DNA of 64,000 bases from Ruegeria sp. SCSIO 43209 (GTDB lineage: Bacteria > Pseudomonadota > Alphaproteobacteria > Rhodobacterales > Rhodobacteraceae), in NCBI RefSeq assembly GCF_019904295.1, contig NZ_CP065360.1:1-64000 (forward strand), written 5' to 3'. Position numbers and translations under genes: made by a program. The notes under the pieces were generated by a model. The model saw only the letters and a list, made by a program, of their open reading frames with translations, was not told where the DNA came from and ran no database searches. Below are positions 2,776-20,762 of this stretch, piece after piece; position 1 is the stretch's first letter, and each line of letters starts with the position of its first letter.

Positions 2776-2830
2776 ACAATAAAAAACGCCTCTGGGTGAA
2801 CAGGTTTTCTTTGTCTGCTGACAAAATCTC

Positions 2831-5149: not shown

Positions 5150-5183
5150 CGAGCTGAAACACGGCACGAAGGGCGGGTAAGCG

Positions 5184-5210: not shown

Positions 5211-5231
5211 TTGTCGGACTCTGAATTTAAA

Positions 5232-6161
5232 TCAGTCGAAGAGGCGACCTAGGAGTTTCTCGAGTTCTTCCCTTTGCTCGACGTGCTTTTTCGGGTTGTC
5301 CCGGATCAGGCGCTCCAGATTGAGAAGCTTCCAACGCACGGCGGGAAGATTGGCGGCTTGCGGTCGATCTATTTCGGCGAAATCCGGCACGCCATCCTGC
5401 AGACTGAGCAAGAATTGTCTGGTGGGTTTGTCGAAGCGAGATTGGATATCCGCAATCAGTTGGTTGCGCGTAGTCAGTAGGTCATCCAGACCGACGGCTG
5501 ACTTAGTCATGCCCTCGAACTCACGCACATAAGGTTGATCTAGGGCGATCAAGTTGGGATTCAGCAATTCGTGTGCCGGGCGTGCCGAACAGGCGATGTA
5601 GATCAAGAAAGTCCGGAACAGATCATCCGTCAGTCCTTCGTGTTCGTAGAGCAGCTTTACATCATAAAGATCGCGTGGATGCTGGCGATCCACGGCTGCG
5701 TGGAGCTTACCGCCGAACAAATCTTCGAATGAGACGATCTGCATTTCTGCATAGCCAAACGCGTCTGCTACGGCGTCGGAGACCGCCCGGGTTTCGGGGT
5801 CATGAACAACGCCGCGTGTGACAGGCGAGGTCTCGATTTTGACTTCTGCACCTTCCAGACGCGCAAGCACACGGGTGGCGCCGCCCCCACCTCCTTTTAT
5901 TCTTTGAGCCTTCGCCCCGCTGATACCCTTTTCGATCGACTTAGCGATACGATCCATGGCTTCGTTGATCTCGGCGAGGCTCTGTTCACGCTCTTTGATC
6001 GGCAGATATGTCAGGTCGATATCAACCGACAGTCGCGGTAGATCGCGATAGAAGAGGTTGATTGCTGTCCCGCCCTTGAGCGCGAATATCTCTTCCTTCG
6101 CGACGTAAGGCAATACACGCACGAGAAGGGCTACCTGGGATTCATAATTCCTACGCGCCAT
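5232..6161 (-). CDS. abiEii: AbiEii-type nucleotidyltransferase toxin
   Basis: This is the toxin half of an AbiE (type IV toxin-antitoxin / abortive infection) pair. It has the nucleotidyltransferase core expected of AbiEii: ALKGGTAINLFYRDLPRLSVDIDL (GG/S loop and the DxD metal-binding pair, about residues 24-47), then a helical C-terminal region. The open frame runs further upstream, but ATG at 6161 (MARRNYESQ) gives a normal 309-aa protein. That start overlaps the antitoxin stop by 11 bp, as expected for a coupled pair. AbiEii enzymes act with GTP or other NTPs; the substrate here is unknown. Confidence 0.88.
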   Translation of the reverse strand: MARRNYESQVALLVRVLPYVAKEEIFALKGGTAINLFYRDLPRLSVDIDLTYLPIKEREQSLAEINEAMDRIAKSIEKGISGAKAQRIKGGGGGATRVLARLEGAEVKIETSPVTRGVVHDPETRAVSDAVADAFGYAEMQIVSFEDLFGGKLHAAVDRQHPRDLYDVKLLYEHEGLTDDLFRTFLIYIACSARPAHELLNPNLIALDQPYVREFEGMTKSAVGLDDLLTTRNQLIADIQSRFDKPTRQFLLSLQDGVPDFAEIDRPQAANLPAVRWKLLNLERLIRDNPKKHVEQREELEKLLGRLFD

Positions 6162-6972
6162 TTTCTGCCCCTGTCGTGACGAACTCTTCGGGTACCATGA
6201 TGCGATATCGCGGATGTATCCGACCCCCTTCGACCAATGCTCGATCCCCCGTCCCGAGGTTGAAGGCGTCAGCATCAAGTCTTTTGCGCCAGGGGTGATT
6301 GTGGCGATCCGCAAAAACGAAGAAGAGGCGCCTGACCTTTATTTTCTTGCAGCTCAGCAAGAGCGCTGAGAGCAACTTAGGTCGTAGCGTCGTCAAGCCC
6401 TCGAACACCATGTCGAGGTTGTGAAAACTCTCATGGTCCGGCAATTCGTCCATGGCTTCCATGACAGCCCGTTCGGGGGCCGACATGCGCAGTTGCCAGT
6501 CCCACGGGAGGGAGTTTTCAGATTTTATGTCGTCATTTGTAACGCCAAGTTCCTGGTCAGCGAACAGCGACGTATTGCGCGTTTCTATAGGTGCATTGAG
6601 TGACAGCTTCGTGAGCCAGTTGGGTATTTTGTAGCCATAGATCCAGACGGGGGCGTTATTGGCCAAACGCAGGTAGTGGTCGTAGCCCTGTTGTGAGAGA
6701 GCGGTTTTGCCGCCGACATGAATATCATAGCCCATGATATGTTGCATCGAGATCAGGCATGCCTTCCAGTCAACGGTGTTTGATGCTGGCGGATTGGGAA
6801 CAGGTCGGCGGAAAACGCCGCGGTGAACGCGTTCGAGCCAGCCCCGTTTTACATAGTCGCGAAAGGTTTCGTAGGCTATGCCATGGGCTGTGAGCCAGTT
6901 GGCATCGACGAGATATCCCGCGGGCACTGAGTCGAGAACTTTCTTCAAATTTTGCGATCTTCCAGCGTTCAT
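6151..6972 (-). CDS. abiEi: AbiEi-type antitoxin / autorepressor
   Basis: It is the first gene of the AbiE operon. The N-terminal region (VPAGYLVDANWLTAHG...YVKRGWLERVHRGVFRR) matches the winged-helix domain of AbiEi antitoxins, and GGKTALSQQGYDHYL is the conserved segment after it. In the family this protein represses the operon and neutralises AbiEii. At 273 aa it is in the usual range. A perfect 9-bp inverted repeat at 6992-7024 directly upstream is its likely operator. Confidence 0.88.
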   Translation of the reverse strand: MNAGRSQNLKKVLDSVPAGYLVDANWLTAHGIAYETFRDYVKRGWLERVHRGVFRRPVPNPPASNTVDWKACLISMQHIMGYDIHVGGKTALSQQGYDHYLRLANNAPVWIYGYKIPNWLTKLSLNAPIETRNTSLFADQELGVTNDDIKSENSLPWDWQLRMSAPERAVMEAMDELPDHESFHNLDMVFEGLTTLRPKLLSALLLSCKKIKVRRLFFVFADRHNHPWRKRLDADAFNLGTGDRALVEGGRIHPRYRIMVPEEFVTTGAENGA

Positions 6973-7228: not shown

Positions 7229-8684
7229 GGGGAGTGGAAAGAATGTGGGGATACCAGCCGTTCCTGATCTAAGGTCTCTTTGTTTTAACAGGAGGCATAG
7301 TGATGAAATTCAGGATCAAGTTGGAGACAGAGTTTGGTTGGGGCGAGACGAGATCACACGAGATTTGTGTTTTAGAACGCCGAACGATTGATACATCGGA
7401 GGAAGACTTCGGACTGTGTCTGGCCGAGGCAAAATCGCTGCTGAAAGAAATTCAGCGCGCGTTTCTTCAGGACCAAGTCGAAGAGATCAGCGAAATCGCT
7501 CGCGTGTGTCGCTTCTGTGGAACATATCTACCAGTTCATGATCGCCGCCAGCGCCACATCGCCACGCTCTTCGGTCGGGTGTCCGTCGAGGCACCGCGGG
7601 TTCGGATATGTATGTGCGGACTCCCAGGGTTTCCAACATTGAAAGTCGCGCATTCTCCTCTGACACGGCTTTTGCCGGACCAAGCCACGCCTGAGATTCG
7701 GCGATTGCAGGCGGAATTGGGGGCGCGTCATAGCTTTCGGGACGCTGCGCGGCTTCTGAATGAACTGACTCCATGCTCCAAGCAGAACCATGTGACGATC
7801 CGCAATCGACTTGCAACAGTTGCTAATGACCTTGATAGCGACGATCACTTCAAGGCATCCGAAGCCGACCAGCGCTCAAAATCTTCCGATATTACGGTGT
7901 TTCTGGATAGTGCCTACGTTCGATCAAGACCAGAAGATCAACGCCGGAACTTTGAGATTGTCGTTGGTTCCATCGAGAACAGGGGTCGCGAGAAACGCCG
8001 ATTTGGTCTGAGTGTGATCGGTGCGGACAATCCGCGCGAATATCTGCGAAGAAATTTGGAAGCGGCCGGTTGGCATGAGGGTTCTGTGGTGACAGTGCTG
8101 TCCGATGGCGACCCGGCACTACCAAGATTGGTGCGGGACGCCACAGGTGCGGAGGTCAATCACATCCTGGACTGGTGGCATATTTCAATACGCATCAGAC
8201 ATGTGGAAACGACATTCCAAACCCTGCTTTCTTTGCTTAAAGACCCTGAGGATCTTGCGGTCAAGAAGCTGGTTCAAAGCTTGCGCTGGCGCATATGGCA
8301 TGGCCAAACGCCTCGTGCGCTTGATGCCATTGAAGCACTGTTCAGATTTGGCCTAGACGTGCGAAGCCAAACTTTTGGCAGAACGAACGACGCAGCGTTT
8401 TCGGCAGTTTCGCGAACAATGGAGCTGCAAACCTACCTGCAATACAATCGCGCGGCACTGGTCGACTATGATCATCGGCGGCGCAACGGCAAACCGGTCT
8501 CGACTTCTCGAGCAGAAGGCTTGGTCAATGACGTCGCCAATGCTCGCATGGGCAAGAAACGCCGAATGCGCTGGTCACCGCAAGGTGCACACCGAGTGGC
8601 AACGGTCAGAGCTGCGGTTCTGGACGGAAGGCTTGGCAAAGGGCAGCTTCGCGCGGCTTGATCCCCACATTCTTTCCACTCCCC
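7229..8684 (+). mobile_element. ISKra4-type insertion sequence, apparently complete (1456 bp)
   Basis: The element is bounded by perfect 23-bp inverted repeats: 7229-7251 beginning GGGGAGTGGAAAG and its exact complement at 8662-8684. It holds a single full-length transposase gene whose stop codon abuts the right repeat. No clear target-site duplication is visible. Identical ends and an intact gene suggest recent arrival. Confidence 0.9.
7303..8661 (+). CDS. ISKra4-family transposase
   Basis: This DDE-type transposase moves the insertion sequence around it. The ATG at 7303 follows an ideal AGGAGG (7290-7295); a GTG immediately before it is less likely. The N-terminal half has a zinc-ribbon-like CRFCGTYLP and a C-x-C region (RICMCGLPG). 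The catalytic domain contains VFLDSAYV, VLSDGDPAL and ILDWWHISIRI, and AEGLVNDVANARMGKKRRM near the C-terminus is typical of ISKra4 transposases. The length, 452 aa, is normal. Confidence 0.88.
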   Translation: MKFRIKLETEFGWGETRSHEICVLERRTIDTSEEDFGLCLAEAKSLLKEIQRAFLQDQVEEISEIARVCRFCGTYLPVHDRRQRHIATLFGRVSVEAPRVRICMCGLPGFPTLKVAHSPLTRLLPDQATPEIRRLQAELGARHSFRDAARLLNELTPCSKQNHVTIRNRLATVANDLDSDDHFKASEADQRSKSSDITVFLDSAYVRSRPEDQRRNFEIVVGSIENRGREKRRFGLSVIGADNPREYLRRNLEAAGWHEGSVVTVLSDGDPALPRLVRDATGAEVNHILDWWHISIRIRHVETTFQTLLSLLKDPEDLAVKKLVQSLRWRIWHGQTPRALDAIEALFRFGLDVRSQTFGRTNDAAFSAVSRTMELQTYLQYNRAALVDYDHRRRNGKPVSTSRAEGLVNDVANARMGKKRRMRWSPQGAHRVATVRAAVLDGRLGKGQLRAA

Positions 8685-8726: not shown

Positions 8727-9044
8727 TTAGGGTACAGTGACATCTGTATTGAGCCCGTTCGCCCGGATGCAGGTTATTTGTCGAATGCAGGATACGGGGC
8801 GGGGGAAATCCGATCAGCTTATCGGAGCTACTTCTCGGACGTCGAAGATTACCTGAATTGCCTGAACCACGCCTCGGCGCGGATACGGTGGGAGGCGACC
8901 GCGGCCGCGCAGGACTACAACCGAGTTCTCGACCAGTATCCTGTTGAGCCGGGGCAGGGGAGTGAACCCGAGCAAGTCCCTCGCATCGAGATGACGGACA
9001 GCGGGACATTGTTTCTGGACTATCAGGCTGAGTGGCTGAAATGA
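8727..9044 (+). pseudogene. 5'-truncated small-protein gene next to the insertion sequence
   Basis: The reading frame is open from 8727 but has no good start (a TTG at 8778 without a ribosome-binding site). The encoded tail, with segments such as CIEPVRPDAG and SYFSDVEDYLNCLNHAS, is helical and looks like real protein. I recall similar small Rhodobacterales proteins that have a signal peptide and cysteines, but cannot name a function. The missing N-terminus would lie where the ISKra4 element ends 43 bp upstream. 9045-9327 holds nothing recognisable. Confidence 0.5.
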
Positions 9045-9327
9045 TTGCACTAAATTCGAGCTATTGCCGCCATTCGCGATAGTGCTGACAAATTCACGCA
9101 AGGCGGGACAAACCAGTCATACGCCGAGCCCCGCAGCGGCACCGAATGGCACCAAGCTGCCGTTGAACCATCCTGTCGAATGCTGCGGCCGCGGCCCGTA
9201 CTTCGGACATTCGATGCAGGTGCAAGATTGGTTAGTAGGTGGACTCACAACTTGCGGACAGACCCGCCACTCTTCCCAATCGCTACCAACTCCAGCTTGT
9301 TATTCATAACGTGCAAGGACGCTGGTC

Positions 9328-9795
9328 TTATCGGTCAAGGCCGACCGGTATCATTCCGCTGCGCTTATGTTCGTAGGCAATCGACGTTTCGTAGGTAGTT
9401 ATCTCGATGCGCTCGGTCAGCGCGTGGTAGGCGATGGACTTCAGGTGGTCCATGTCGCGCGCGATCAGCGAAACCACAAGGTCGTACCGGCCAGTGACAA
9501 GATACACATTCTGGATTTCCGGAACCGCCACAAGGTCCTCCATGAGTGTGTTGATGTTGACCTGGCCTTCTTTCGAGATGTTGACGAAGATCACCGCGGC
9601 AAGCCCGAAGCCAAGGCGCTTGGGGTTTACCACGGTCTCGGTTCCCTCGATGGCACCTTCCTGCCAAAGCCTCTTCACCCGCTCATGGACAGATGAGGGC
9701 GCAAGCCCCACTTCGGCCGCGAGCTGTTTGTTCATCAACCGAGCATCCTTCTGCAGAAATTCGAGAATTTGACGGTCTGTTCGGTCAAGCGGCAT
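9328..9795 (-). CDS. Lrp/AsnC-family transcriptional regulator
   Basis: This 155-aa regulator starts LDRTDRQILEFLQKD and has the AsnC-type helix-turn-helix LAAEVGLAPSSVHERVKRL (about residues 26-44). The C-terminal RAM ligand-binding domain contains VPEIQNVYLVTGRYDLVV. The frame extends far upstream through the P450 gene, but ATG at 9795 gives the standard family length. It is transcribed divergently from the P450 operon and is the obvious candidate to control it, probably in response to an amino acid or amine derivative. Confidence 0.92.
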   Translation of the reverse strand: MPLDRTDRQILEFLQKDARLMNKQLAAEVGLAPSSVHERVKRLWQEGAIEGTETVVNPKRLGFGLAAVIFVNISKEGQVNINTLMEDLVAVPEIQNVYLVTGRYDLVVSLIARDMDHLKSIAYHALTERIEITTYETSIAYEHKRSGMIPVGLDR

Positions 9796-9810
9796 TTTCA
9801 CCTCTTCTGG

Positions 9811-9885
9811 TTCGAATTTAATTCGATTGCGACGAAGTGACACACAGATCATTCTGTGTCCAGTGAAAAATCCGGCGAATATTCG
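9811..9885. promoter_or_regulatory. divergent regulatory region with three palindromes
   Basis: Between the Lrp-type gene and the P450 operon are three dyads. TCGAATTTAATTCGA (9812-9826) is nearly palindromic, ACACAGA-TCAT-TCTGTGT (9842-9859) is perfect in its 7-bp arms, and CGAATATTCG (9876-9885) is perfect. They are spaced 32 bp and 30 bp centre to centre (about three helical turns), as expected for cooperative binding by Lrp-type octamers. Confidence 0.55.
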
Positions 9886-9924
9886 GAACTGATCTAAACT
9901 TGCCGAACAAACAGTGGGAATGCT

Positions 9925-11133
9925 ATGGGAGTGCCGAAAATCGACGATGCGCCGTTTCTGGATCCGTCCGATCCGAACTTCTCTACCCGCTCCGACGCTG
10001 TACGCCGCGCCCGCGAGGAAAGTTGGTTTGCCCGAACGCCGTACGGTTTGGCCGTGCTGCGTTACGAAGAGATGAAAGAGATGATCATGCACCCGTCGCT
10101 GCGGCAGGGGTCCTACCGCTGGCCGGAGCACAACGGCACATCCGGTCTTTGGTCGCAATGGTGGAAGCGGATCATGCTCAATGTCGAGGGCGACGATCAT
10201 CGGCGTTTGCGCAAGCTGGGCGCGCCGGCCTTCGCGCCCAAACTGGTCAGTTCTCTGATCCCGGAGTTCCAGGCGTTGTGTGACGAACTGATCTCGAACT
10301 TTGCGTCGGTCGGCAAATGCGAATTCATGGCGGATTTCGCCGAGCCTTACGCCGCGCGGGTGATCTGCTCGCTTGTGGGGGTGTCCGGCGACCAATGGCG
10401 CGAGCTGACCGACCACGCTGTCGAGATGGGCTATGCGCTTGGCGTAAACTATGCTCGGGACGAGCCTCGCGTGGATGCGGCCACAGAGTGGTTCTTCGAC
10501 TTTGCCCGGGAGGTCGTCGCAGATCGCCGCGCCCATCCTCGGGAAGATTTCATCGGTGCGCTGATCTCGGCCAATGCCGACAAGGATTCACTCAGCGATC
10601 AAGAGCTTCTGGACATGATCGTGCTGTCGATCTTTGGCGGAATAGACACCACTCGCAACCAGCTGGGCCTGGCGATGGCGACGTTTGTCGAGCATCCCGA
10701 ACAGTGGAAAGTTCTCGGAAACGATCCTGACCTCGGACGTCAGGCGGTTGAGGAAGTGATGCGCGTTCGGCCGACGGTCACCTGGGTGACACGCGAGGCG
10801 ATGGAAGATTTCGAATACAAGGGCTTGGCGATCCCGCAAGGCACGACAATCCATCTATTTTCTGAATCTGCCGCCACTGACCCCACGCATTTCGAACCCG
10901 GTTTCGATATCACCGTCAAACGCAAGCCGAATTTCGGATTCGGTGGCGGCAAGCATCATTGCATCGGCTCTCCCATCGCGCGTGGCGACATGTCCGAGGC
11001 ACTGAAGATGCTGGCGCAGCGGTTGAGGAACCCGGTGCCGGACGGGCCCGCCGAATGGCTGCCAGACAGTGGTAATACGGGTCCTCTGTCCCTGCCGATC
11101 CGTTTCGACCCCGAGGAGCGTCGAATTGTTTGA
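9925..11133 (+). CDS. cytochrome P450 monooxygenase
   Basis: This 402-aa soluble bacterial P450 is expected to use electrons from a ferredoxin to insert oxygen into its substrate. The heme-binding loop FGFGGGKHHCIG places the ligand Cys at residue 346. The I-helix motif GGIDTTRNQ is near residue 238 and the K-helix EEVMR near 277. It is the first gene of a nine-gene operon with glutamine-synthetase-like ligases and ends with a ferredoxin that is the likely redox partner. P450-ferredoxin modules with a GS-like gene are known from cyclic-amine degradation in mycobacteria, which fits an amine substrate; the actual substrate is unknown. Confidence 0.95.
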   Translation: MGVPKIDDAPFLDPSDPNFSTRSDAVRRAREESWFARTPYGLAVLRYEEMKEMIMHPSLRQGSYRWPEHNGTSGLWSQWWKRIMLNVEGDDHRRLRKLGAPAFAPKLVSSLIPEFQALCDELISNFASVGKCEFMADFAEPYAARVICSLVGVSGDQWRELTDHAVEMGYALGVNYARDEPRVDAATEWFFDFAREVVADRRAHPREDFIGALISANADKDSLSDQELLDMIVLSIFGGIDTTRNQLGLAMATFVEHPEQWKVLGNDPDLGRQAVEEVMRVRPTVTWVTREAMEDFEYKGLAIPQGTTIHLFSESAATDPTHFEPGFDITVKRKPNFGFGGGKHHCIGSPIARGDMSEALKMLAQRLRNPVPDGPAEWLPDSGNTGPLSLPIRFDPEERRIV

Positions 11134-12433
11134 GAAGCTGCTGCAAGAACATGAGGCAGAGGTCGTCCATGTCGGCCAATTTGACTACGCCTCGATCTTC
11201 CGCGAAAGGCGGTTGCGGCGCGACCAGTTTCTGCAATGGACGCAGGACCCGCGGTTCGCCAACGTGGTTGCCTATTGGGACAGCGCCGACAATTTGATCG
11301 GTGGTTCGTCCTATTATACCGAACAGCAGAAGATCGACGCCGACAGCATTCGCCGCTACCCGGCAGAGCCCGGTGCCGTCGCAATCATCGCCGAAATGGC
11401 CGGAGAACCGGAAGAGGTGATGCCTCGCCAGGTCTTGCGCCGTCAGCTTCAGCGAGCCGAGGCAATGGGCTATGTCGTCGATGCCGGGTTCGAGTTCGAA
11501 TTGATCCTGCTCGATGAAACCGACATGTCCGTGCGCGAGCGCGGATTCGAGAACCTCGAAAAATTCGCACCTGACAACAAATGCTGGTCGGGAACAACCG
11601 CAGCCATCCATGCCGAGTTGATCCGCGACCTGGAAGCCGAGATCATGGGATATGATGTCTGCCTCTTCGGTCTTGGGGTTGAGCTTGGCCCCGGTTGCCT
11701 CGAGGCGACGCTTGGAGCCACGCGCGGCTTGCGCGCGGCGGATGACGCGGCCTTCTTCCGGCTCGCAGCCCGCTCATGGGCAAGGCGGAACGACCTGACC
11801 GTCAGTTTCATGCCGTACCTGGGGCCCGATTATCCCGGGATCGGTGGCCATTGCACCCTGTCGTTGCGTGACAAGGCAAGCGGCGCGAACCTGTTCTCGG
11901 ACGCGTCCGGCCGCACGAACGATCTGGCCAAAAGCTTTATCGCGGGGATGATCGACGTTGTGCCCGAGTGCTTCGCGATGTGCACAAGTTCGGTTAACGC
12001 ATATCGTCGCCTCGCGCCGGGATCCTGGGCGCCCAAGGCCGTGACCTGGGCGGAATACACCTTTACCACCGCCGTGCGCTCGGTGCCGTCCGACTCCGAC
12101 ATGGCGCGGCTGGAATTCCGGTCGCCTCCGTCGGACTGCAACCCGTATCTGACCATGGCGCTGATGTTGGGCGCGGGGCTTGACGGGGTTGAGCGGGGGT
12201 TGAGCGCGCCCCCTGCGGCGCAGGCCGCGGGACCTGATGATGTGCCCGAAGGCGCACAGCGGTTCCCGCGCGATCTTTACGAGGCGGCGCACAGAATGGC
12301 GCAAAGCGATGCCGCAGCAAGATTGTTCGGTGATCGGTTCGTGCAGAACTTCACAGCCGCCTGCCTTGCCGAGGATGCAAGCCTGCGCACGGCCGTCAGT
12401 GCCGATGAGCGGCGCCGATACCTGGAAGCATAA
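11126..12433 (+). CDS. glutamine-synthetase-like gamma-glutamyl ligase 1
   Basis: Glutamine-synthetase-fold enzymes outside nitrogen assimilation join glutamate to amines using ATP. The protein keeps the metal ligands: GFEFEL, ELGPGCLEATLG and GIGGHCTLSL. It also keeps the C-terminal MARLEFRSPPSDCNPYL. There is no ATG near the beginning. TTG at 11126 follows GAGGAG (11113-11118) by 7 nt and overlaps the P450 stop, so it is chosen and suggests translational coupling. The result is 435 aa, close to family size. It is more divergent than ligase 2, and the two may differ in substrate or form a mixed complex. Confidence 0.88.
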   Translation: MFEKLLQEHEAEVVHVGQFDYASIFRERRLRRDQFLQWTQDPRFANVVAYWDSADNLIGGSSYYTEQQKIDADSIRRYPAEPGAVAIIAEMAGEPEEVMPRQVLRRQLQRAEAMGYVVDAGFEFELILLDETDMSVRERGFENLEKFAPDNKCWSGTTAAIHAELIRDLEAEIMGYDVCLFGLGVELGPGCLEATLGATRGLRAADDAAFFRLAARSWARRNDLTVSFMPYLGPDYPGIGGHCTLSLRDKASGANLFSDASGRTNDLAKSFIAGMIDVVPECFAMCTSSVNAYRRLAPGSWAPKAVTWAEYTFTTAVRSVPSDSDMARLEFRSPPSDCNPYLTMALMLGAGLDGVERGLSAPPAAQAAGPDDVPEGAQRFPRDLYEAAHRMAQSDAAARLFGDRFVQNFTAACLAEDASLRTAVSADERRRYLEA

Positions 12434-12461
12434 ACAAAAGAACCGACGGGGAACGAACGGA

Positions 12462-13946
12462 ATGATACCAACGGATTCAGACTATCACCGCGAACGTGAC
12501 GCAGAGGGACGAGACGAGCTGGTAAAGCGCGTCCGCCAGAAGATCGATGCGCTCGGGGTGGATTATATCTACTACCAATATATTTCGATCACCGGGCGGG
12601 TGATGGGCAAGGCCGCACCGGCCCGGCACTGGGAAACGCAGGCCCGCAAGGGCGTGCAGACCTGGATGGGTGGTGTGTCAAACGTTACTCCGAACTTTCA
12701 GGGCGAGTTGATCGGGTTTGACGCGAATGCGATGGAATGCATCGCCCTGCCGGATCCTGAGACCTTTGTGCAATTGCCTTGGGACAAGCGGATTGCGCGC
12801 GTCTTTTGCACGCTTTTCTACGGCATCGAAGACCCTGAAAAACCTGGGGAATACTACGAGTACGACACGCGTGGAAACCTCAAGCGGTTCGATCGCGAGT
12901 TCCGTGAAAAGCACAACGGCCTGTACCTGAAAGTCGGACTGGAACCGGAAATGCTGTGGCTCAAGCCGAAGGAGGGCGAAGTGCAGCCTTTCGAGGGCAT
13001 GACACAACCTTTCGCCTATCATATCGGACAGTTCGAGGAGGTTCGCGAGGTCTGGAAACAGGTCTCGGATTACGCGCTCGCCATGGGGCTGGACATGATC
13101 CAGGGCGATTGCGAGGACAGCCCCGGCCAGGTCGAACTGAACTACCAGTTCGACGACGCGCTGCAGACCTGCGATCGGATGACGACCTATCGCCAGATCT
13201 GCGCCGAAGTCGCACGCCAGCGCGGATTGATCGCCTGTTTCATGGCCAAACCCTATATGGGTTACGCTGCCAATGGCTGTCATCACAATTGCTCGCTATG
13301 GACCGGGGGGCAGCGCGAGGTGCAGCAACTGACCAAGGACGACCTACCCGGTATGGAGGAAAACTGGGAATATTCGGTCGGCGGGACCAACGAATTCGAA
13401 AGCACCGAAGGGGATTGGCTACCGTCCGAGTTAGGCCATCATGCGCTCGGCGGTTCCTTGAAACATATCAACGCTTTGACCGCAATTGGTGCATCAACCG
13501 TCAATTCCTATCGTCGGTTCAATGATTTCGGGCTTTGGGCTCCGATCGGGGCGAACTGGGGGCTGCAAAACCGTTCCTGTGCTGTCCGGATTTCATCTCC
13601 CGACCGGTTCGAATTTCGTGCTGTGGATTCCATGGTCAACCCTCACCTCTTCTGCGGCGCACTTATCAAGGCGCTGGATGACGGCATCACCAACAAGATC
13701 GATCCGGGCAAACCAGAGGCTCGCAACGTGACCGAAATATGGATGAGCGGTGAAGAAGAAGTGAACTTGATCCCGCTTAACCTTCGCGACGCGTTGGAGG
13801 CGCTTGAGAAGGACGAGGTCATTCGTTCGGCTATGCCGGGCAAACTTTATGACCTTTACCAAGAGTACAAGCAGGACGAATGGACCCGATTCCTGCGCGA
13901 GGTCACTAACTGGGATGTGGAGCGCTATCTGCACTGCGTCCCCTGA
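12462..13946 (+). CDS. glutamine-synthetase-like gamma-glutamyl ligase 2
   Basis: This second GS-fold ligase is 494 aa from the ATG at 12462; the frame is open further upstream through ligase 1, but that part is shadow. Active-site elements are present: VGLEPEMLWL, EDSPGQVELNYQ, ANGCHHNCSLW, RRFNDFGLWAPIGANWGLQNRS and FEFRAVDSMVNPHL. Relatives include gamma-glutamylmethylamide, gamma-glutamylisopropylamide and gamma-glutamylpolyamine synthetases. With a polyamine-type transporter and a glutaminase-like gene in the same operon, attachment of glutamate to an imported amine is the most likely role. The substrate cannot be read from sequence. Confidence 0.9.
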   Translation: MIPTDSDYHRERDAEGRDELVKRVRQKIDALGVDYIYYQYISITGRVMGKAAPARHWETQARKGVQTWMGGVSNVTPNFQGELIGFDANAMECIALPDPETFVQLPWDKRIARVFCTLFYGIEDPEKPGEYYEYDTRGNLKRFDREFREKHNGLYLKVGLEPEMLWLKPKEGEVQPFEGMTQPFAYHIGQFEEVREVWKQVSDYALAMGLDMIQGDCEDSPGQVELNYQFDDALQTCDRMTTYRQICAEVARQRGLIACFMAKPYMGYAANGCHHNCSLWTGGQREVQQLTKDDLPGMEENWEYSVGGTNEFESTEGDWLPSELGHHALGGSLKHINALTAIGASTVNSYRRFNDFGLWAPIGANWGLQNRSCAVRISSPDRFEFRAVDSMVNPHLFCGALIKALDDGITNKIDPGKPEARNVTEIWMSGEEEVNLIPLNLRDALEALEKDEVIRSAMPGKLYDLYQEYKQDEWTRFLREVTNWDVERYLHCVP

Positions 13947-14047
13947 TCCGCAATGACACGAGGCGCGGAGACCGGTGCCGCGTCGTACAAAACCGGAAAA
14001 CCCGAAGCACCGGCGAAAATCAAAAGAACCAACAGGGAGTTGGAAAC

Positions 14048-15088
14048 ATGAAGAACCTGACACTGACCACCAGCGTTGCCGCGCTGGTTCTGGCTGGCGG
14101 CGCGGCCTCTGCACAAGAGCTCAACGTCCTGACATGGGAAGGCTATGCTGACGACAGTTTCATCAAGCCGTTCGAAGAGGCCTCAGGGTGCAAGGTAAAC
14201 GCGACCTATGTCGGCTCGAACGACGATTTCGCGCCGAAACTGGCGGCGGGCGGCGGGGTCTACGACCTGATCACGCCGTCGATAGACACAACTCAATTGA
14301 TGATCGACGCGGGTTTCGTGGAACCGATTGACACGTCGAAAGTCGACGCCTGGGGCGACATCTACCAGAAATTCCTGGATCAGGACGGCATCCAGGAGGG
14401 CGGCGAATATTACGGCGTGCCCTATACGTGGGGGTCTATCCCGTTCATGTATCGCAACGATGCCTTCGACACGCCGCCCACCTCCCTCAAGGCACTGTGG
14501 AGCGACGACCTGTCAGGCAAGATCTCGCTATGGGATGATAAATCGGCGCTTTATGTCGCCGCGCGACTGAATGGTAACATGAACATCTATGACCTCAGCG
14601 ACGACGAACTGGCCGCCGCGCAGGCCAAGCTTGTCGAACAGAAACCGCTGGTGCGCAAATACTGGGCGACGGCGGGCGAACTGGTCGATCTCTACGCGGG
14701 CGGCGAGGTGGTGATCTCGAATACCTGGGGCGGCTACCAGTCGGCGCTTCTGGCGGAGCAGGGCATCGAGGTGACCGAGTTCATCCCCGAGGAAGGCGCT
14801 GAAGGATGGATGGACAGCTGGATGGTCGTCAAGGGCACACCCAACACCGAATGCGCCTACAAGTTCATCAACATGCAACTGAGCGAGTTGGGCCAGTGCG
14901 GCGTTGCCAATGTGAACGGCTATTCCGTCGCCAACCCGGTCGCGGCCAAGGCCTGCATGCCGCCTGAGCAATTCGAAGCGCTGCACCAAGCCGATCCGGA
15001 CTATCTCGATAGCCTGCTGCTTTGGCAGCCGCTTGGCGAACGCCTCGAGACCTACACCAATACGTGGAACTCGGTAAAAGCCCAGTAA
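14048..15088 (+). CDS. polyamine-type ABC transporter, periplasmic binding protein (PotD/PotF-like)
   Basis: A signal peptide of about 22 residues ends in GGAASAQE. The mature part starts ELNVLTWEGYADDSFIKPFEEASGCKV, typical of spermidine/putrescine-binding proteins. AGGGVYDLITPS and NTWGGYQSALLAEQG are further family features, and the length of 346 aa is normal. It captures the operon's substrate in the periplasm. A GC-rich stem-loop follows the gene (15101-15130). Specificity is inferred only at the level of a cationic amine or amino-acid derivative. Confidence 0.92.
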   Translation: MKNLTLTTSVAALVLAGGAASAQELNVLTWEGYADDSFIKPFEEASGCKVNATYVGSNDDFAPKLAAGGGVYDLITPSIDTTQLMIDAGFVEPIDTSKVDAWGDIYQKFLDQDGIQEGGEYYGVPYTWGSIPFMYRNDAFDTPPTSLKALWSDDLSGKISLWDDKSALYVAARLNGNMNIYDLSDDELAAAQAKLVEQKPLVRKYWATAGELVDLYAGGEVVISNTWGGYQSALLAEQGIEVTEFIPEEGAEGWMDSWMVVKGTPNTECAYKFINMQLSELGQCGVANVNGYSVANPVAAKACMPPEQFEALHQADPDYLDSLLLWQPLGERLETYTNTWNSVKAQ

Positions 15089-15100
15089 CAAGGAAACGTG

Positions 15101-15130
15101 CGGCGGGGCTTGTGTGGACTTGCCCCGCCG
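15101..15130 (+). promoter_or_regulatory. intercistronic stem-loop after the binding-protein gene
   Basis: CGGCGGGGC (15101-15109) pairs perfectly with GCCCCGCCG (15122-15130) over a 12-nt loop, with no U-run. Such hairpins after binding-protein genes usually protect the upstream mRNA or partly attenuate, raising the binding protein above the membrane parts. Confidence 0.6.
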
Positions 15131-15154
15131 TTCAAATCACAGGCTTGAACAACC

Positions 15155-16240
15155 ATGCCCGCAATCATCGAGCTTTCGAAAATCAGCAAACACTATGGCT
15201 CTGTCATCGGGGTCGAGCACGTGGACCTCAACGTGGCGGACGGAGAGTTCCTGACGCTTCTAGGCCCATCGGGCTGCGGCAAGTCCACCTTGTTGCGGAT
15301 GATCGGCGGGTTCGAGATGCCGACCACGGGCACGATCACACTTTCCGGGCAGGACGTGACTCACCTGCCACCGCAAAAGCGCGACGTGAATATGATGTTC
15401 CAGGATTATGCGCTCTTTCCGCATATGACGGTTGGGCAGAACATCGCCTACGGGTTGAAGATGAAGGGCATCGGCAAGAACGAAGCCCGGCGCAAAGCGG
15501 AAGACGCGCTGGAACTTGTCGGTTTGGTCGACAAGATTGACCAGCAGCCGCACCAGATGTCGGGCGGCCAGAAACAGCGCGTAGCGCTGGCCCGCGCCAT
15601 CGTGCGCGAGCCCAAGGTTCTTCTGCTGGACGAACCTCTATCGGCGCTGGACGCCAAGTTGCGTGAGCAAATGCAGGTCGAACTCAAGCACATGCATGAC
15701 AAGCTGGGGATTACCTTCATCATGGTCACTCACGACCAGACCGAGGCGCTGGTCATGTCCGACCGCGTCATCGTGATGGAAAGCGGGCGCATCGCCCAGG
15801 ACGGCACGCCCGAAGAGCTTTATGAGCATCCGTTGACGCCCTATGTGGCGAACTTCATCGGCACAACCAATTTTCTGCCGGCCCGTATAACTCAACGCAG
15901 CGCACATGAAACCCGGTTGGATGTGGCCGGCCAGATTCTGACAACCCAGTTTGACAGGGTGCCACAGGGCGATCGCGTGCGCGTCGGTGTGCGCCCGGAA
16001 AAGGCGCGCTTCCTCAACGGGTCGGCGGCTCCGGGCAATATTTTGGCCGGCACGGTCAGCGAACACATCTACCACGGCACCAGCCTGCGCACTGCCGTTA
16101 TACTGCCCGATGGAACCGAATTTTACGTGGACGCGATGCTGCCGTTTGGAATGGCAAGGGCAGACGCGCCCGCGATTGGCAGCGAGGTCCGGATCGGAGT
16201 CGAGCCCGAAAATGTACTTCTCTTTGACGCCGAGGATTGA
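15155..16240 (+). CDS. polyamine-type ABC transporter ATPase (PotA-like)
   Basis: This 361-aa ATPase has Walker A GPSGCGKST, Q-loop FQDYALFP, signature MSGGQKQRVALARA, Walker B VLLLDEPLSALD and the switch His in MVTHDQTEAL. The C-terminal part (from about residue 245) is the TOBE/OB-type domain of PotA/MalK transporters, with RVGVRPEKARF. It powers import by the two permeases encoded next. The permease ATG follows its stop codon directly. Confidence 0.95.
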   Translation: MPAIIELSKISKHYGSVIGVEHVDLNVADGEFLTLLGPSGCGKSTLLRMIGGFEMPTTGTITLSGQDVTHLPPQKRDVNMMFQDYALFPHMTVGQNIAYGLKMKGIGKNEARRKAEDALELVGLVDKIDQQPHQMSGGQKQRVALARAIVREPKVLLLDEPLSALDAKLREQMQVELKHMHDKLGITFIMVTHDQTEALVMSDRVIVMESGRIAQDGTPEELYEHPLTPYVANFIGTTNFLPARITQRSAHETRLDVAGQILTTQFDRVPQGDRVRVGVRPEKARFLNGSAAPGNILAGTVSEHIYHGTSLRTAVILPDGTEFYVDAMLPFGMARADAPAIGSEVRIGVEPENVLLFDAED

Positions 16241-17110
16241 ATGATGGGGGGCACTTTCCTTTCGCGTCATTCCGCCAAGCTGGTCCTGGGCATCCCGATT
16301 CTATGGATCGTGCTGTTCATGCTGGTGCCCTACGGCGTGCTGCTGACCTACAGCTTCTGGATCAAGAAATACCCGCTGTTCGTTCCTGCCTTCCAGTTCG
16401 GCAATTACTGGACGCTTTTGACCGACCCGCAATACGTGCAGGTGCTCTTGCGTACGCTCAAGATCGCGGCGCTGGTGTCGGTTGCATCGTTGGCTTTGGC
16501 CTATCCCTTCGCCTATTTCCTGGTTTTCCGACTTAAGAACCACACTATCCGCGTGTTCCTGTTTATGGGTGTGATCGCCCCCTTGTGGGTCTCTTACCTG
16601 CTGCGCGCCTATGTTTGGAAAACCATTCTGGGAACCGAGGGTATCCTGAATTCCTTTCTGATGAACATCGGGATCATTGATGAGCCGTCCGGGATCTTCC
16701 TGTACAACCAGTTCGCGATGGTGCTAACGCTGACCTACATCTTCATCCCCTTCATGGTCATGCCCATCTATACCGCGCTTGAGAAGATCCCCGGCAATCT
16801 TGGTGAGGCGTCGGCAGATCTGGGCATGGGCGCCTTCGCGACGTTCTGGAAGATCACACTGCCGCTCTCGATGCCCGGTGTGGTGGCCGGATTTACCATG
16901 ACGTTCTGCCTCAGCTTCGGAGATTTCATCGCGCCGTTTCTGGTGGGCGGCCCGGATGGCCAGATGGTGGCGAACGTGATGGTCTCGCAGTTCGGGGCGG
17001 CGCTGAACTGGCCTCTGGGTTCGGCACTGGCCGTGGTGATGCTGATCATTGTGCTGACAATCATTTCGCTTTCCGACCGGTTTGAACAGTCCGGAAAGGT
17101 CGAACTATGA
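16241..17110 (+). CDS. polyamine-type ABC transporter permease 1 (PotB-like)
   Basis: This inner-membrane permease of 289 aa has about six transmembrane segments and the EAA loop for ATPase contact (LGEASADLGMGAFATFWKI). The translation starts immediately at the PotA-like stop (ATG 16241, with a second ATG at 16244). Its last four bases form ATGA with the next gene, so the two permeases are made together. Confidence 0.93.
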   Translation: MMGGTFLSRHSAKLVLGIPILWIVLFMLVPYGVLLTYSFWIKKYPLFVPAFQFGNYWTLLTDPQYVQVLLRTLKIAALVSVASLALAYPFAYFLVFRLKNHTIRVFLFMGVIAPLWVSYLLRAYVWKTILGTEGILNSFLMNIGIIDEPSGIFLYNQFAMVLTLTYIFIPFMVMPIYTALEKIPGNLGEASADLGMGAFATFWKITLPLSMPGVVAGFTMTFCLSFGDFIAPFLVGGPDGQMVANVMVSQFGAALNWPLGSALAVVMLIIVLTIISLSDRFEQSGKVEL

Positions 17111-17949
17111 GCGCCGCTTCCACCACTCTTGTTGCCACTGCACCCGCCAGGCGTGGCCGACTCGCCGCTGACAGCGGATTTGTCCTGATCGTTTCGCTGG
17201 TCATGGCGTTTCTCTACCTGCCGATCTGGATTCTCATCATCTACAGTTTCAATGACAACCGGACGCTGACCTGGCCGCTGACCGGATTCACCACGCACTG
17301 GTACGAGCAACTGTTCCAGAACGAGCAGCTGCTCACAGCCATCGGCAACAGTTTCTACGTTGCCACCTGTTCAACCTGCTTGACGCTGCTTGTGGGCGTA
17401 CCCGCCGCGCTGGCACTCCACCGGTTCAGCTTCCCCGGCAAGACGATTTTCCGGCGGCTTCTACTGTTACCTATCGCGCTGCCGGGGATCGTGACGGGCA
17501 TCTCAATGCTCAACATGTTCAAGATGTTCGGCTTCAACCTCAGTCTCGAAACCGTCATCCTTGGCCATGCCACCGCGCTTCTCGCGGTCGTGGTGACACA
17601 GGTTTTTGCCCGACTTCAACGGCTGCCCAAATCTCTGTCGGAAGCGTCATCGGATCTGGGTGCAAACCCGCTGCAGACATTCATCCATGTTACACTGCCG
17701 AACATTCGTACCGCGCTCATTGGTGCCGGACTTTTGTCCTTCGTCCTGTCCTTCGACGAGATTCCGGTCACGTTCTTCCTGACTGGCCGAGACAACACGC
17801 TTCCGATGTATATCTATTCGACCATGCGGCGCGGGGTGACGCCGGAAATCAACGCGGTCGGCACGATCATCGTACTCATGTCGCTGATCCTGATCATCAT
17901 CTCGGTTGTCTTCACCGTGCGCGACAACACGAGCAAGGGGATTGCGTAG
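17107..17949 (+). CDS. polyamine-type ABC transporter permease 2 (PotC-like)
   Basis: This second permease is 280 aa, with family segments YLPIWILIIYSFNDN near the N-terminus, the EAA-type loop LSEASSDLGANPLQTFIHV, and DEIPVTFFLTG. It overlaps permease 1 by ATGA and is followed two bases later by the amidotransferase-like gene, which supports one transcript for transport and metabolism. Confidence 0.93.
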   Translation: MSAASTTLVATAPARRGRLAADSGFVLIVSLVMAFLYLPIWILIIYSFNDNRTLTWPLTGFTTHWYEQLFQNEQLLTAIGNSFYVATCSTCLTLLVGVPAALALHRFSFPGKTIFRRLLLLPIALPGIVTGISMLNMFKMFGFNLSLETVILGHATALLAVVVTQVFARLQRLPKSLSEASSDLGANPLQTFIHVTLPNIRTALIGAGLLSFVLSFDEIPVTFFLTGRDNTLPMYIYSTMRRGVTPEINAVGTIIVLMSLILIIISVVFTVRDNTSKGIA

Positions 17950-17951
17950 CG

Positions 17952-18653
17952 ATGCGCATCTGCATTCTCGAAACCGATGTCCCTGCCGACGAGATGAAGA
18001 AGGAACACGGCGATTTTGCCGACATGTTCGAGACGTGGCTATTCCCAGCCCTGCCCGAAGCGACATGGGACAGGTTCGCGGTTCATAGTGGCGACAATCT
18101 GCCAAACGCCGACAGCTTCGATGGTTACATGATTACCGGCTGCCGCCACGGAGTGTATGATGATCTGTCATGGATGACGCCCTTGGCCGGGTTTCTTCGA
18201 CACCTCAGGGACAGGCACATTCCGGTTGGAGGCGTTTGTTTCGGCCATCAGATCATGGCGCACGCCTATGGCGCCCAAGTCGAGAAATCAGGCGACGGAT
18301 GGGTGTTAGGGGCTGACACCTACGACAACCTCGCGGCTTTTGCGATTCATCAGGACCAGGTGCAGTCAATACCCACCGGCGTGCGTCACGTCACTGGAAG
18401 CCCGCGCTGCCGGATTGGTCGCATCGCCTACGCGTTTCCTGCCTTGTCGGTCCAGTATCATCCGGAATTCACAGCAAGTTTCATGAAATCCCTACTTGAC
18501 CACTATGGAGGTACACGGATTGACAAGTCGCTTACTGAAGCGGCGGAACAAACGTTGTCGCACCCCACCCATGTCGGCGATATCGCCCGTGATTTTGCCA
18601 AGATATTTCGATGCGCGCGGCCAAGAGATGCAGAAGCCACCCAGGAGGAGTAA
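17952..18653 (+). CDS. class I glutamine-amidotransferase-like hydrolase
   Basis: This 233-aa stand-alone class I amidotransferase domain has the nucleophile Cys96 in GGVCFGHQ, and His170 and Glu172 in QYHPEF. These enzymes break gamma-glutamyl amide bonds. In aniline-degradation clusters a GS-like ligase gene is accompanied by a similar gene whose product is linked to hydrolysing the gamma-glutamyl intermediate. Here the likely role is removing glutamate from an oxidised (or unproductive) gamma-glutamyl amine; this is inference from context. The stop codon abuts the ferredoxin ATG. Confidence 0.9.
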   Translation: MRICILETDVPADEMKKEHGDFADMFETWLFPALPEATWDRFAVHSGDNLPNADSFDGYMITGCRHGVYDDLSWMTPLAGFLRHLRDRHIPVGGVCFGHQIMAHAYGAQVEKSGDGWVLGADTYDNLAAFAIHQDQVQSIPTGVRHVTGSPRCRIGRIAYAFPALSVQYHPEFTASFMKSLLDHYGGTRIDKSLTEAAEQTLSHPTHVGDIARDFAKIFRCARPRDAEATQEE

Positions 18654-18965
18654 ATGTCCGTGATCCATGTGAAGGATAGAGACGGGTCAGAGCATACGCT
18701 AGAAGCCCGGCCAGGTCTGAAGATCATGGAAATCATCCGTGATGCCGGCCTTCCCATCGAGGCGGCCTGCGGCGGCTCCTGCGCATGCGCGACCTGTCAT
18801 GTCTATGTCGCGCCCGGCTGGATCGCTCGCCTGGACCCACAGGATGATATGGAGGTGGATTTGCTGGATCTCGCGGACGCGGTCACCGAAACCTCGCGCC
18901 TGTCCTGCCAGATCGAATTCGATGAAACTTTGGATGGATTGAAGGTTGAATTGGCGCCGGAATGA
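18654..18965 (+). CDS. 2Fe-2S ferredoxin, adrenodoxin/putidaredoxin type
   Basis: This 103-aa ferredoxin has cluster ligands Cys39, Cys45 and Cys48 in ACGGSCACATC and Cys85 in LSCQI, the spacing of adrenodoxin-type ferredoxins. An extra Cys43 lies in the loop. It starts at the first base after the amidotransferase stop and is the last gene of the operon. It is the natural electron donor for the P450. No ferredoxin reductase gene is present in the operon or elsewhere in the window. Confidence 0.93.
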   Translation: MSVIHVKDRDGSEHTLEARPGLKIMEIIRDAGLPIEAACGGSCACATCHVYVAPGWIARLDPQDDMEVDLLDLADAVTETSRLSCQIEFDETLDGLKVELAPE

Positions 18966-18993
18966 ACTGGCACTACGTCCGTCACCAAACTGT

Positions 18994-19608
18994 CTAGCCC
19001 CCTGTGTCTGGGCCACTGATCTGGGGTTTCTCTAATAGGGTTTCAGGAACGGGTGGGCGCATGTTGAGTGCCTGATGCGGCCTGGTGTGATTGTACTGCT
19101 TGAGCCAGTGATTGATGACGATCTGAGCTTGCTTGGTCGTCATGAACCATTCCGCATTGAGAACCTCTCGCCGCAATGTTCCATTGAACCGCTCGTTGTA
19201 TCCGTTCTCCCAGGGCGATCCCGGGCAAATGCGGATCGGCTTGATGCCAACGCGTCGAAGCCAGCCCTGCATCGCCTTTGCTGCGAACTCGGGGCCATTA
19301 TCGGATCGGATATACTCTGGGGAACCGTGGTGCAGCAGGAGTGGATAGAGTGCTTCGAGAACATCGTCGGCACCCATCTTGGTGCGGACCACGACAGCCA
19401 AGGCCTGCCGCGTGAACTCATCGAGAACCGTCAGCATCTTGTAACTGCGCCCATTGCTGAGCTTGTCGTGGACGAAGTCGATGGCCCAGACGTGGTTCGG
19501 ATGCGTTGACCTCAATCGGATGATCGAGCTGTCCTTGTGGTAGAGCCGCTTGCGCTTCTTGTGGCGCTGCGGAAGCTGTAACCCCTCTTCCCGCCAGGAG
19601 CTGGCGTG
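18994..19608 (-). pseudogene. truncated IS3-family transposase (C-terminal part of OrfB)
   Basis: The minus-strand frame reads from WREEGLQLPQRHKKRKRLYH through HPNHVWAIDFV and SDNGPEFAAKAM to HTRPHQALNMRPP, the integrase-like core and tail of an IS3 OrfB. It is cut abruptly at 19608, where the second IS3 element begins, and the missing N-terminal part is not found on that element's far side. Its outer end starts TAGCCCCCTG (18995-19004). Confidence 0.85.
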
Positions 19609-19635
19609 CCCCGAACAGGTGGTCCGGTTTGATTG

Positions 19636-20451
19636 TTAGTGCATCGTGGGCCTCTGGTCCATCGGGACGACGCTTTCTGGCGCGGGTGGGCGGTATCCCA
19701 GAGCGCTGTGGGGTCTGACGGTGTTGTAGTGAGCGCGCCATTGCTCGATCAGGATTTGCGCTTCCCGTAAGCTGTAGAATAGCTCGCCGTTCAACAGTTC
19801 ATCGCGGAACCTGGCGTTGAAGCTTTCGCAGTATCCGTTCTCCCAGGGCGATCCCGGCTCGATGTAAGCCGTCTTCGCGCCAACAGCGGCAATCCAATCC
19901 CGTACCTTCCGGGCAATGAACTCAGGGCCATTATCGGATCGGATGTATTCCGGCGGGCCGCGCAGGATGAACAGATCGGTCAGCGCATCCACCACATCCG
20001 TTGAGTTGAACTTGCGATCGACGCGGATCATCAGAGCCTCCCTGGTGTATTCGTCGATGATGTTGAGCGTGCGGTAGACCCGACCGTCATGGGTGCGATC
20101 CTGGACGAAGTCATAGGACCAGACATGGTTGGGCCGTTCGGGCCGCAGGCGCACACACGATCCATCGTTCAGCCACAGCCGGCCCTTTTTCTTCTGCTTT
20201 TGCGGAACCTTCAGCCCTTCACGTCGCCAGATGCGCTCGACCCGCTTGTGGTTCACGTGCCAGCCCGCATTGTTCAGCAGTCCCGTCACCATCCGATAGC
20301 CGTAGCGCCCATACTTGTCGGCCAACTCGATGATGTCGTCCGTCAGGCGCTCTTCATCGGCGCGACCTTGTGGAACCTTACGCTGTGTGGAGCGGTGCTG
20401 TCCCAGCGTGCGGCAGGCGCGGCGCTCTGAAACGCCAAGCTCCCGACGCAC
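19636..20451 (-). CDS. IS3-family transposase OrfB (integrase core)
   Basis: This is the DDE catalytic part of the transposase, with NHVWSYDFVQDRTHDG, DEYTREALMI, SDNGPEFIARKV and PWENGYCESFNARFRDELLN carrying the DDE residues. Upstream of the listed start the same frame reads KLLSPSRRRQCIDHV, overlapping the end of orfA. It is therefore probably made as an OrfAB fusion by -1 frameshifting near 20485-20495. The listed start is the first in-frame start codon only. Confidence 0.88.
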   Translation of the reverse strand: MRRELGVSERRACRTLGQHRSTQRKVPQGRADEERLTDDIIELADKYGRYGYRMVTGLLNNAGWHVNHKRVERIWRREGLKVPQKQKKKGRLWLNDGSCVRLRPERPNHVWSYDFVQDRTHDGRVYRTLNIIDEYTREALMIRVDRKFNSTDVVDALTDLFILRGPPEYIRSDNGPEFIARKVRDWIAAVGAKTAYIEPGSPWENGYCESFNARFRDELLNGELFYSLREAQILIEQWRAHYNTVRPHSALGYRPPAPESVVPMDQRPTMH

Positions 20452-20483
20452 ATGATCGATGCATTGCCGGCGACGCGAAGGGC

Positions 20484-20762
20484 TCAGAAGTTTCCCTTCG
20501 CAGCTTCAGCGAGAATGAGCTTGTCCAGCGTCAGATCGGACACCGCTCGACGCAGACGCTGGTTCTCTTTCTCCAGCTCTTTCAGCCGGGCAAGCTGAGA
20601 CCGCCCCATCCCGCCGTAAAGCTTTCGCCATCGATAGAACGTCTGCTGCGTCACACCGATCTGGCGAACCGCCTCGGCGATCGTCGCGCCTTGTCCTTGC
20701 AGAACTTCAACCTGCCGAAGCTTCGAGACAATCTCTTCGGGCTTCTCTCGTTTCCCAGCCAT
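20484..20762 (-). CDS. IS3-family transposase OrfA (DNA-binding)
   Basis: This 92-aa protein has a helix-turn-helix (QGATIAEAVRQIGVTQQTFYRW) and a leucine-rich coiled-coil (LKELEKENQRLRRAVSDLTL) for multimerisation, ending EAAKGNF. A -1 shift just before its stop enters the OrfB frame, as in other IS3 elements. Confidence 0.9.
   Translation of the reverse strand: MAGKREKPEEIVSKLRQVEVLQGQGATIAEAVRQIGVTQQTFYRWRKLYGGMGRSQLARLKELEKENQRLRRAVSDLTLDKLILAEAAKGNF

Follow-up and report, generated by a model that had tools for sequence, protein, structure and literature searches.

Judged by gene content, the closest known counterpart of the operon described here is the isopropylamine (Ipu) cluster of the actinomycete Paenarthrobacter aurescens TC1, which serves the breakdown of a pesticide amine. 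In an excerpt of the published account, isopropylamine enters strain TC1 through permeases, is glutamylated by IpuC, is converted by a cytochrome P450 to gamma-glutamyl-L-alaninol and then meets an amidotransferase (PMC6776027). The ipu genes of plasmid pTC1 (CP000475) run in the order SDR, glutamine amidotransferase (GATase), P450, ferredoxin, ferredoxin reductase, ipuC, GAF protein, AsnC regulator and alanine dehydrogenase. We analysed the first 64,000 nucleotides of contig NZ_CP065360.1 of Ruegeria sp. SCSIO 43209 (hereafter the window), in which nine genes at 9925..18965 would follow a similar scheme. We consider it likely that they form a catabolic operon of the Ipu type, horizontally mobile and carried on a plasmid, for import, gamma-glutamylation, oxygenation of the tagged amine and de-glutamylation. 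The original prediction for this DNA had arrived at the same order of steps, which is that of the Ipu pathway in the excerpt (PMC6776027), but its view that known systems match only parts of the set is not supported as it stands by the TC1 plasmid, which joins GATase, P450, small ferredoxin, ferredoxin reductase, a ligase resembling glutamine synthetase (GS) and an AsnC regulator. The parallels cited there were aniline and mycobacterial cyclic-amine degradation, and the isopropylamine cluster went unnamed.

Other amine pathways share some of the same parts. The putrescine (Puu) pathway of Escherichia coli is comparable in the PuuC-like aldehyde dehydrogenase (ALDH) of clusters related to ours (50% identity), in the PuuD-like hydrolase of some variants (40%) and in having a GS-like ligase, but it uses the flavin oxidase PuuB in place of an oxygenase, the symporter PuuP in place of a Pot importer, and one ligase. 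The GmaS/N-methylglutamate route resembles the operon in that one of our two ligases, GS2, belongs to the GmaS clade, and at a reference locus (L099) a GmaS-type gene lies beside three genes with glutamate synthase domains; the window operon, however, has an oxygenase and a hydrolase instead of N-methylglutamate synthase genes. Aniline and 1-naphthylamine degradation (AtdA1, NpaA1) likewise involves a GS-like ligase and an oxygenase acting on the gamma-glutamylated amine, with a further gene, npaA2, but the excerpt describes a Rieske-type dioxygenase system, aromatic amines and one ligase, and names no importer (PMC11335346). The mycobacterial pip and mor systems also direct a P450, a ferredoxin and a reductase at amines, although there, according to the part of the source available, the P450 oxidises the free cyclic amine (PMC9477822). 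The openly licensed PMC literature yielded no account of a cluster that joins a P450 to a pair of GS-like ligases and a Pot importer, which is weak evidence of novelty.

The nine genes lie on the forward strand and diverge from an Lrp/AsnC-family regulator (9328..9795, reverse strand; Pfam HTH_24 and AsnC_trans_reg, scanned without the first codon), whose ATG start is at 9795-9793, corrected from 9792. Beyond the divergent promoter region (9796..9924) follow the cytochrome P450 (9925..11133; Pfam p450, 74.5 bits) and GS1, a predicted IpuC-like gamma-glutamyl-amine ligase (11126..12433; Gln-synt_C, 228 bits), the start of which is uncertain, TTG at 11126 being in register with homologues and GTG at 11069 giving the longest open reading frame (ORF). 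GS2, a predicted GmaS-type gamma-glutamyl-amine ligase (12459..13946; Gln-synt_C, 251 bits), precedes four importer genes: a PotD/PotF-type periplasmic binding protein (14048..15088; SBP_bac_8), a Pot-type ABC transporter ATPase (15155..16240; ABC_tran, and above the cut-off of NCBIfam potA TIGR01187), a PotB/PotH-like permease (16241..17110; BPD_transp_1) and a PotC/PotI-like permease (17107..17949; BPD_transp_1). The last two genes encode a class I GATase-fold protein, probably a gamma-glutamyl hydrolase (17952..18653; assigned by Pfam, with Cys96, His170 and Glu172), and a 2Fe-2S ferredoxin of the adrenodoxin/putidaredoxin type (18654..18965; Fer2), a candidate redox partner of the P450 in this lineage only. 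All ten proteins exceed the curated Pfam cut-offs in the profile scan, and the ORFs lie at or very near the positions first proposed, so that the nine codirectional genes and the divergent regulator are confirmed. The intergenic gaps (-8, 25, 101, 66, 0, -4, 2 and 0 bp along the strand) make "mostly overlapping or abutting" a fair description. The reading as a single operon is supported.

The core of this arrangement recurs elsewhere. One genome per species was scanned by a pattern-based search, which gave 32 GS1 loci, a lower bound (numbered L in what follows, genomes being numbered G). Thirty of them have the P450 gene upstream of GS1 in the same orientation; the exceptions are L047, where only 269 bp of contig precede the GS1 match, and L051, which has a PhyH-type gene instead. 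GS2 follows GS1 in 31, and in the remaining locus, L024, the contig ends within GS1. Because the order P450-GS1-GS2 returns in 30/32 loci fetched with GS1, we do not regard the nine-gene arrangement as a product of chance. GS1 itself is rare in the order of the window genome (8 of 390 genomes at E <= 1e-80, including G272 with a 39% relative only) and in its class (6 of 385 at E <= 1e-100). Pairwise distances of P450, GS1 and GS2 are correlated over 30 loci (r = 0.85, 0.73 and 0.90, the highest, 0.90, being that of GS1 with GS2), with none of 999 permutations as high for any of the three in a Mantel test; those involving the binding protein reach 0.84-0.88 over 24 loci as raw values without permutation. 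Vertical descent as a block would give such correlations.

Most relatives are larger than the window operon. The usual order in Rhodobacterales is P450, ferredoxin, reductase, GS1, GS2, PAS protein and sigma-54 activator, continued by binding protein, PotA, PotB, PotC, in some cases ALDH, then GATase and RpoN. A ferredoxin reductase gene stands between P450 and GS1 in 24 of the 32 loci, and all 12 reductase-bearing loci examined have a small single-cluster ferredoxin (about 62 residues; Fer4_15 in L048) between P450 and reductase, which points to a complete P450 system of class I. An ALDH gene was found in 13 of the 22 loci that could be read beyond PotC, and RpoN in 12 of the 14 read past the hydrolase or ALDH (not in L035 and L045). 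Such a dedicated RpoN paralogue, standing beside its own activator in a catabolic cluster, was seen in L028, L031, L084-L087 and L090-L093. The binding protein occurs in 25 loci, the other seven being three short contigs (L024, L036, L046) and L047-L050. In these last four no Pot genes were found in the stretch although the ligases are present, and two carry an amino-acid permease; we accordingly rejected the importer as an essential member. The window operon falls, with L021-L024, into a smaller form that has the divergent Lrp gene, and in which no reductase, small ferredoxin, PAS protein, sigma-54 activator or ALDH gene was found in the cluster.

Trees of both ligases, as envisaged in the original prediction, place GS2 firmly and GS1 loosely. 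GS2 is 51-54% identical to GmaS-type proteins and forms a single clade with them (100/100), the reference proteins being named GmaS because the gene at L099, the one neighbourhood scanned among them, precedes GATase_6, GXGXG and Glu_synthase genes, which we take to be the N-methylglutamate synthase set. GS1 can be aligned with TC1 IpuC at full length (31% identity over 448 columns), but their join is weakly supported (89/46, and 86/91 in a second tree). At the position of Glu327 in E. coli GlnA, on which the residue numbering was checked, Trp occupies 34/34 GS1 and 33/33 GS2 rows, and likewise GmaS and IpuC. Since Trp replaces Glu327 in both, they are unlikely to be glutamine synthetases, and the possibility raised earlier that they make only glutamine from ammonia loses ground.

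In both ligases the Glu and His residues that bind metal are retained, as are Arg344, Glu357 and Arg359, the roles of GS residues being those we assume. Asp50 is replaced by Gly in the two window ligases, but because the N-terminal alignment is uncertain and the Tyr179 column changes from one alignment to another, we rest nothing on either position. Arg339, presumably an ATP-phosphate-binding residue, is retained in GS2 and lost in GS1 alone (Phe in 33/34 rows, including the window, and Tyr in 1/34). In a wider set, Phe or Tyr occupies this site in 18/18 GS1 proteins that have GS2 as a partner, while GS1 relatives without GS2 keep Arg339 in 7/9, the exceptions being L124 (His) and L164 (Tyr). 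That the loss accompanies a GS2 partner suggests that GS1 works together with GS2. We entertain, as a rather doubtful extension of this, that GS1 is active only in a mixed complex with GS2, and that the glutamylated form suits a P450 or a PhyH enzyme interchangeably; L124 and L164 count against such a complex. If true, a gamma-glutamylating enzyme made from two ligases would represent a new design.

The P450 has the I-helix motif GGIDTT with the Asp241-Thr242 pair and the heme ligand Cys346 in 36/36 rows, and its best PDB chain is 3p3l (238 bits). The window ferredoxin matches 3lxf best, and a chromosomal copy shares 51% identity with it. No ferredoxin reductase gene was found in the window operon, and the nearest in the genome, on the chromosome, is 31% identical to the cluster reductase. 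On plasmid p2 of Paracoccus sp. TOH (L053, 16313-19225), the P450 is fused to flavodoxin, FAD and NAD reductase domains in a 970-aa ORF, of which the plasmid's table lists only the reductase part. Genes for a serine hydroxymethyltransferase (SHMT), an EutQ-like cupin and a DAO-like oxidase near the TOH cluster may hint at its substrate. Tert-butylamine or 2-aminoisobutyrate was considered and dropped: the TOH SHMT matches ordinary SHMTs (best 3ecd), and no useful literature was found.

The oxygenase can also be of an unrelated type. L051 encodes GS1, GS2, PAS protein, sigma-54 activator, binding protein and PotABC with a PhyH-family protein replacing the P450. A further search covered 397 genomes of the order of L051 and 385 of the class of the window genome, and 12 of the neighbourhoods it found were fetched. 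Six have GS2 by a GS1 relative, five of these with PhyH (L161, L162, L163, L168, L171) and one with P450, ferredoxin and reductase (L167); the queries used found neither GS2 nor an oxygenase in the remaining six. Together with L051 there are thus six loci in which a PhyH-family iron/2-oxoglutarate dioxygenase follows GS2, and no P450 was found in the stretch at any of them. Their PhyH proteins conserve HxD, the distal His and the following Arg (6/6) and match phytanoyl-CoA dioxygenase best in the PDB. Pot genes accompany four of them (L051, L161, L163, L168); the contig of L162 is short, and none was found in the L171 stretch. One change (100/100) separates the P450 and PhyH sets in the GS1 tree. 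As P450 or PhyH stands at the same place, the oxygenation step looks fixed while the enzyme varies, and unrelated oxygenase types look to have been exchanged within the cluster.

The binding protein matches PotD/PotF-type chains. Compared with E. coli PotD, it keeps Trp34, Tyr37, Ser83, Asp168, Trp229, Trp255, Asp257 and Tyr293 and is changed at Thr35 (Glu), Glu36 (Gly), Tyr85 (Asp) and Glu171 (Ala, Ser or Thr), positions that we take to be ligand contacts. Across 26 rows these positions are invariant except for one gapped row and the Ala/Ser/Thr site. The ligand is likely an amine cation and probably not spermidine; judged by this protein, a polyamine-like substrate is plausible. The catalytic triad of the GATase-fold protein (Cys96, His170, Glu172) is kept in 18/18 rows, and its best PDB match is gamma-glutamyl peptidase 1 (59 bits).

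The operon block was recently transferred, as judged from its divergence. Positions 8744..18990, which enclose the whole operon, are 99.44% identical to L021 of Roseovarius sp. MMSF_3359 over 10,247 bp (57 mismatches, zero gaps), while the rpoB regions of the two genomes, placed in different genera by the genome catalogue, share 83.5% identity over 7,063 aligned positions. This contrast argues for recent horizontal transfer. An ISKra4-family transposase gene (7300..8661, forward strand) lies on the left flank of the block, and IS3-family transposase genes, one C-terminal fragment and one near-complete pair (18994..20762, reverse strand), lie on the right. The contig that begins with the window measures 205,204 bp and belongs to a genome of 4.6 Mb and six contigs. 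Because this contig opens with RepA, RepB and RepC (429-3886; RepC, Pfam PF03428, being the plasmid marker used), it is very probably a repABC plasmid; RepA and RepC exceed the NCBIfam cut-offs, and RepB falls 0.3 bits below its own.

Regulation differs between the two forms of the cluster. We scanned about 420 bp upstream of the P450 gene for sigma-54 (-24/-12) sites and compared the results with shuffles. Sites with at most two mismatches are found in 21 of the 24 reductase-bearing loci, and with at most one in 16; L049 and L050 have a site free of mismatches. Shuffle frequencies per locus are 0-0.015 where there is one mismatch and 0.03-0.105 where there are two, whereas L028, L039 and L052 have three-mismatch sites, no better than shuffles. 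In the window, the best site in 9796..9924 has four mismatches, in line with shuffles, and thus no convincing sigma-54 site was found; upstream of the P450, L022 has four mismatches at best and L023 no site. The divergent Lrp gene is present in L021-L024, and the window Lrp shares 34% identity with the AsnC regulator encoded in the ipu cluster of TC1. Lrp thus apparently took over from sigma-54 control in the lineage of the window.

From these observations we propose the following route. The PotD-like binding protein and PotABC would import a cationic amine, and GS2, with or in complex with GS1, would join it to the gamma-carboxyl of glutamate at the expense of ATP, as their family and residues suggest. 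The P450, supplied with electrons by ferredoxin and reductase, would then hydroxylate a carbon of the gamma-glutamyl amide, for which the Ipu precedent and the PhyH exchange speak. Oxidation of the alcohol or aldehyde could follow, through the PuuC-like ALDH of the cluster in many relatives and through an enzyme encoded elsewhere in the window strain, before the GATase-fold hydrolase takes off glutamate to release an amino alcohol or amino acid. Expression would be governed here by the divergent Lrp; in most relatives a sigma-54 activator encoded in the cluster, in many cases accompanied by an RpoN of its own, would take this part. What the sequences show directly is which genes are present, how they and their key residues are conserved, the transfer of the block, the promoter sites and the exchange of oxygenases; every chemical step we infer, as we do the substrate, probably a small aliphatic amine that is cationic and carries a primary amino group. 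If the scheme holds, gamma-glutamylation would be a general handle by which bacteria oxidise awkward amines, the oxygenase being a module that can be exchanged, and the operon would be a compact transferable unit of marine and waste-water Rhodobacterales that bears on organic nitrogen turnover and industrial amine breakdown.

Compared with Ipu, the scheme appears alike in its working, with a ligase-linked multicomponent P450 (30/32 loci, the window itself having only the local 2Fe-2S ferredoxin), and would differ by two co-conserved ligases, a Pot importer and, in most relatives, sigma-54 control; TC1 has one ligase, no GmaS-type partner and no Pot importer in the stretch read. Several findings weigh against our interpretation. 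The window P450 is 29% identical to that of TC1 over 281 residues and not orthologous, and the window GATase, which is of another subfamily, did not match its TC1 counterpart at E 1e-3, although PuuD-like hydrolases of other cluster variants matched that counterpart; for these reasons, and because of the second ligase, we do not class the window operon as an Ipu member. It is without the conserved small ferredoxin, reductase and ALDH, and its 2Fe-2S ferredoxin, counted as a pathway member in the original prediction, had to be rejected as a core component: in a tblastn search (E <= 1e-5, over 45 bits), it stood beside the cluster in only one of the 32 loci, L021, the near-identical copy of the window block. 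The absence of Arg339 puts the ligase activity of GS1 in doubt, no GATase match was found at L052 in the stretches read, and linked genes that share their descent would also give the correlated distances. At L124 (7623-10234, G316), a second GS1 relative (59%) has no GS2 and lies beside a PuuB-like flavin oxidase. P450 and ligases, furthermore, can be separate, a finding that qualifies the linkage seen in most GS1 loci: among 196 relatives, the P450 matches of at least 60% besides the window are G090 (74%), G098 (62%) and G057 (61%), and only G098 carries the cluster (on the same contig as L029). The orthologues in G090 and G057 have no ligase cluster around them, the best GS2 matches in these genomes being GmaS-type (52-54%), and three more distant P450s (G106, G054, G033; 40-48%) are unlinked too. 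The G090 P450 retains a divergent Lrp and nests with the window P450 (89/81), and the pair may represent either a remnant or a separate use.

Such unlinked orthologues allow a free substrate, and gene order does not fix reaction order; the P450 or PhyH enzyme might thus act first, hydroxylating the free amine or a diamine at one end, and the ligases would then glutamylate the product. Sister operons without GS2 pair ligase and Pot importer with iron alcohol dehydrogenases, and amino alcohols may therefore be accepted by those ligases. We nevertheless hold this order to be unlikely, because in the closest described pathway the P450 acts after glutamylation (excerpt of PMC6776027) and the 1-naphthylamine dioxygenase acts on the gamma-glutamylated amine (excerpt of PMC11335346). 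The oxygenase could instead attack the carbon next to nitrogen, splitting the amide into glutamine and an aldehyde and serving mainly nitrogen scavenging. The sigma-54-type sites (21/24 reductase-bearing loci) and cluster RpoN (12/14) suggest nitrogen control, and PuuC-like ALDH occurs in 13/22 loci, but the conserved gamma-glutamyl hydrolase would then be less needed. We know of no example of this variant of the glutamylated-amine pathway and think it improbable.

Ordinary polyamine catabolism of the Puu kind, with the P450 as a passenger, would explain the Pot-type importer and the PuuA-, PuuC- and PuuD-like parts, and the oxidase beside the L124 ligase is 38% identical to E. coli PuuB. No PuuB-like oxidase was found among the nine genes of the window, however, and the oxygenase is inherited together with the ligases and replaced by another oxygenase rather than lost; the binding protein is also altered at the PotD positions Glu36, Tyr85 and Glu171, changes that are fixed or nearly so. 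This explanation seems rather improbable to us. Least credible, and in our opinion very improbable, is a biosynthetic operon for a hydroxylated gamma-glutamyl compound: the nearest solved P450, 3p3l, is the biosynthetic AurH, but the conserved importer and hydrolase, the PuuC-like ALDH and the sigma-54/Lrp control speak against it, and no exporter was seen in the cluster. We thus favour import followed by glutamylation, oxygenation and de-glutamylation.

A few further features were observed around these loci. The stand-alone Lrp-P450 pair of G090 (L098, 9053-10844) adjoins phosphomannomutase and ManC genes. The sister operons (L122, L165, L166, L169, L170, L172) combine a GS-like ligase with binding protein and PotABC and have no GS2; an iron alcohol dehydrogenase gene lies nearby in L122, L165, L166, L170 and L172, and these ligases may handle amino alcohols. 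The replication genes of the window have as neighbours (4040-6972) genes for a Fic-domain protein and for a toxin-antitoxin pair of the AbiEi/AbiEii type. A second stretch (53584-56609), apart from the operon block, resembles L021 at 69-75% identity and contains ParB-like genes, and a relaxase gene is located at 58654-60489 of the same contig.

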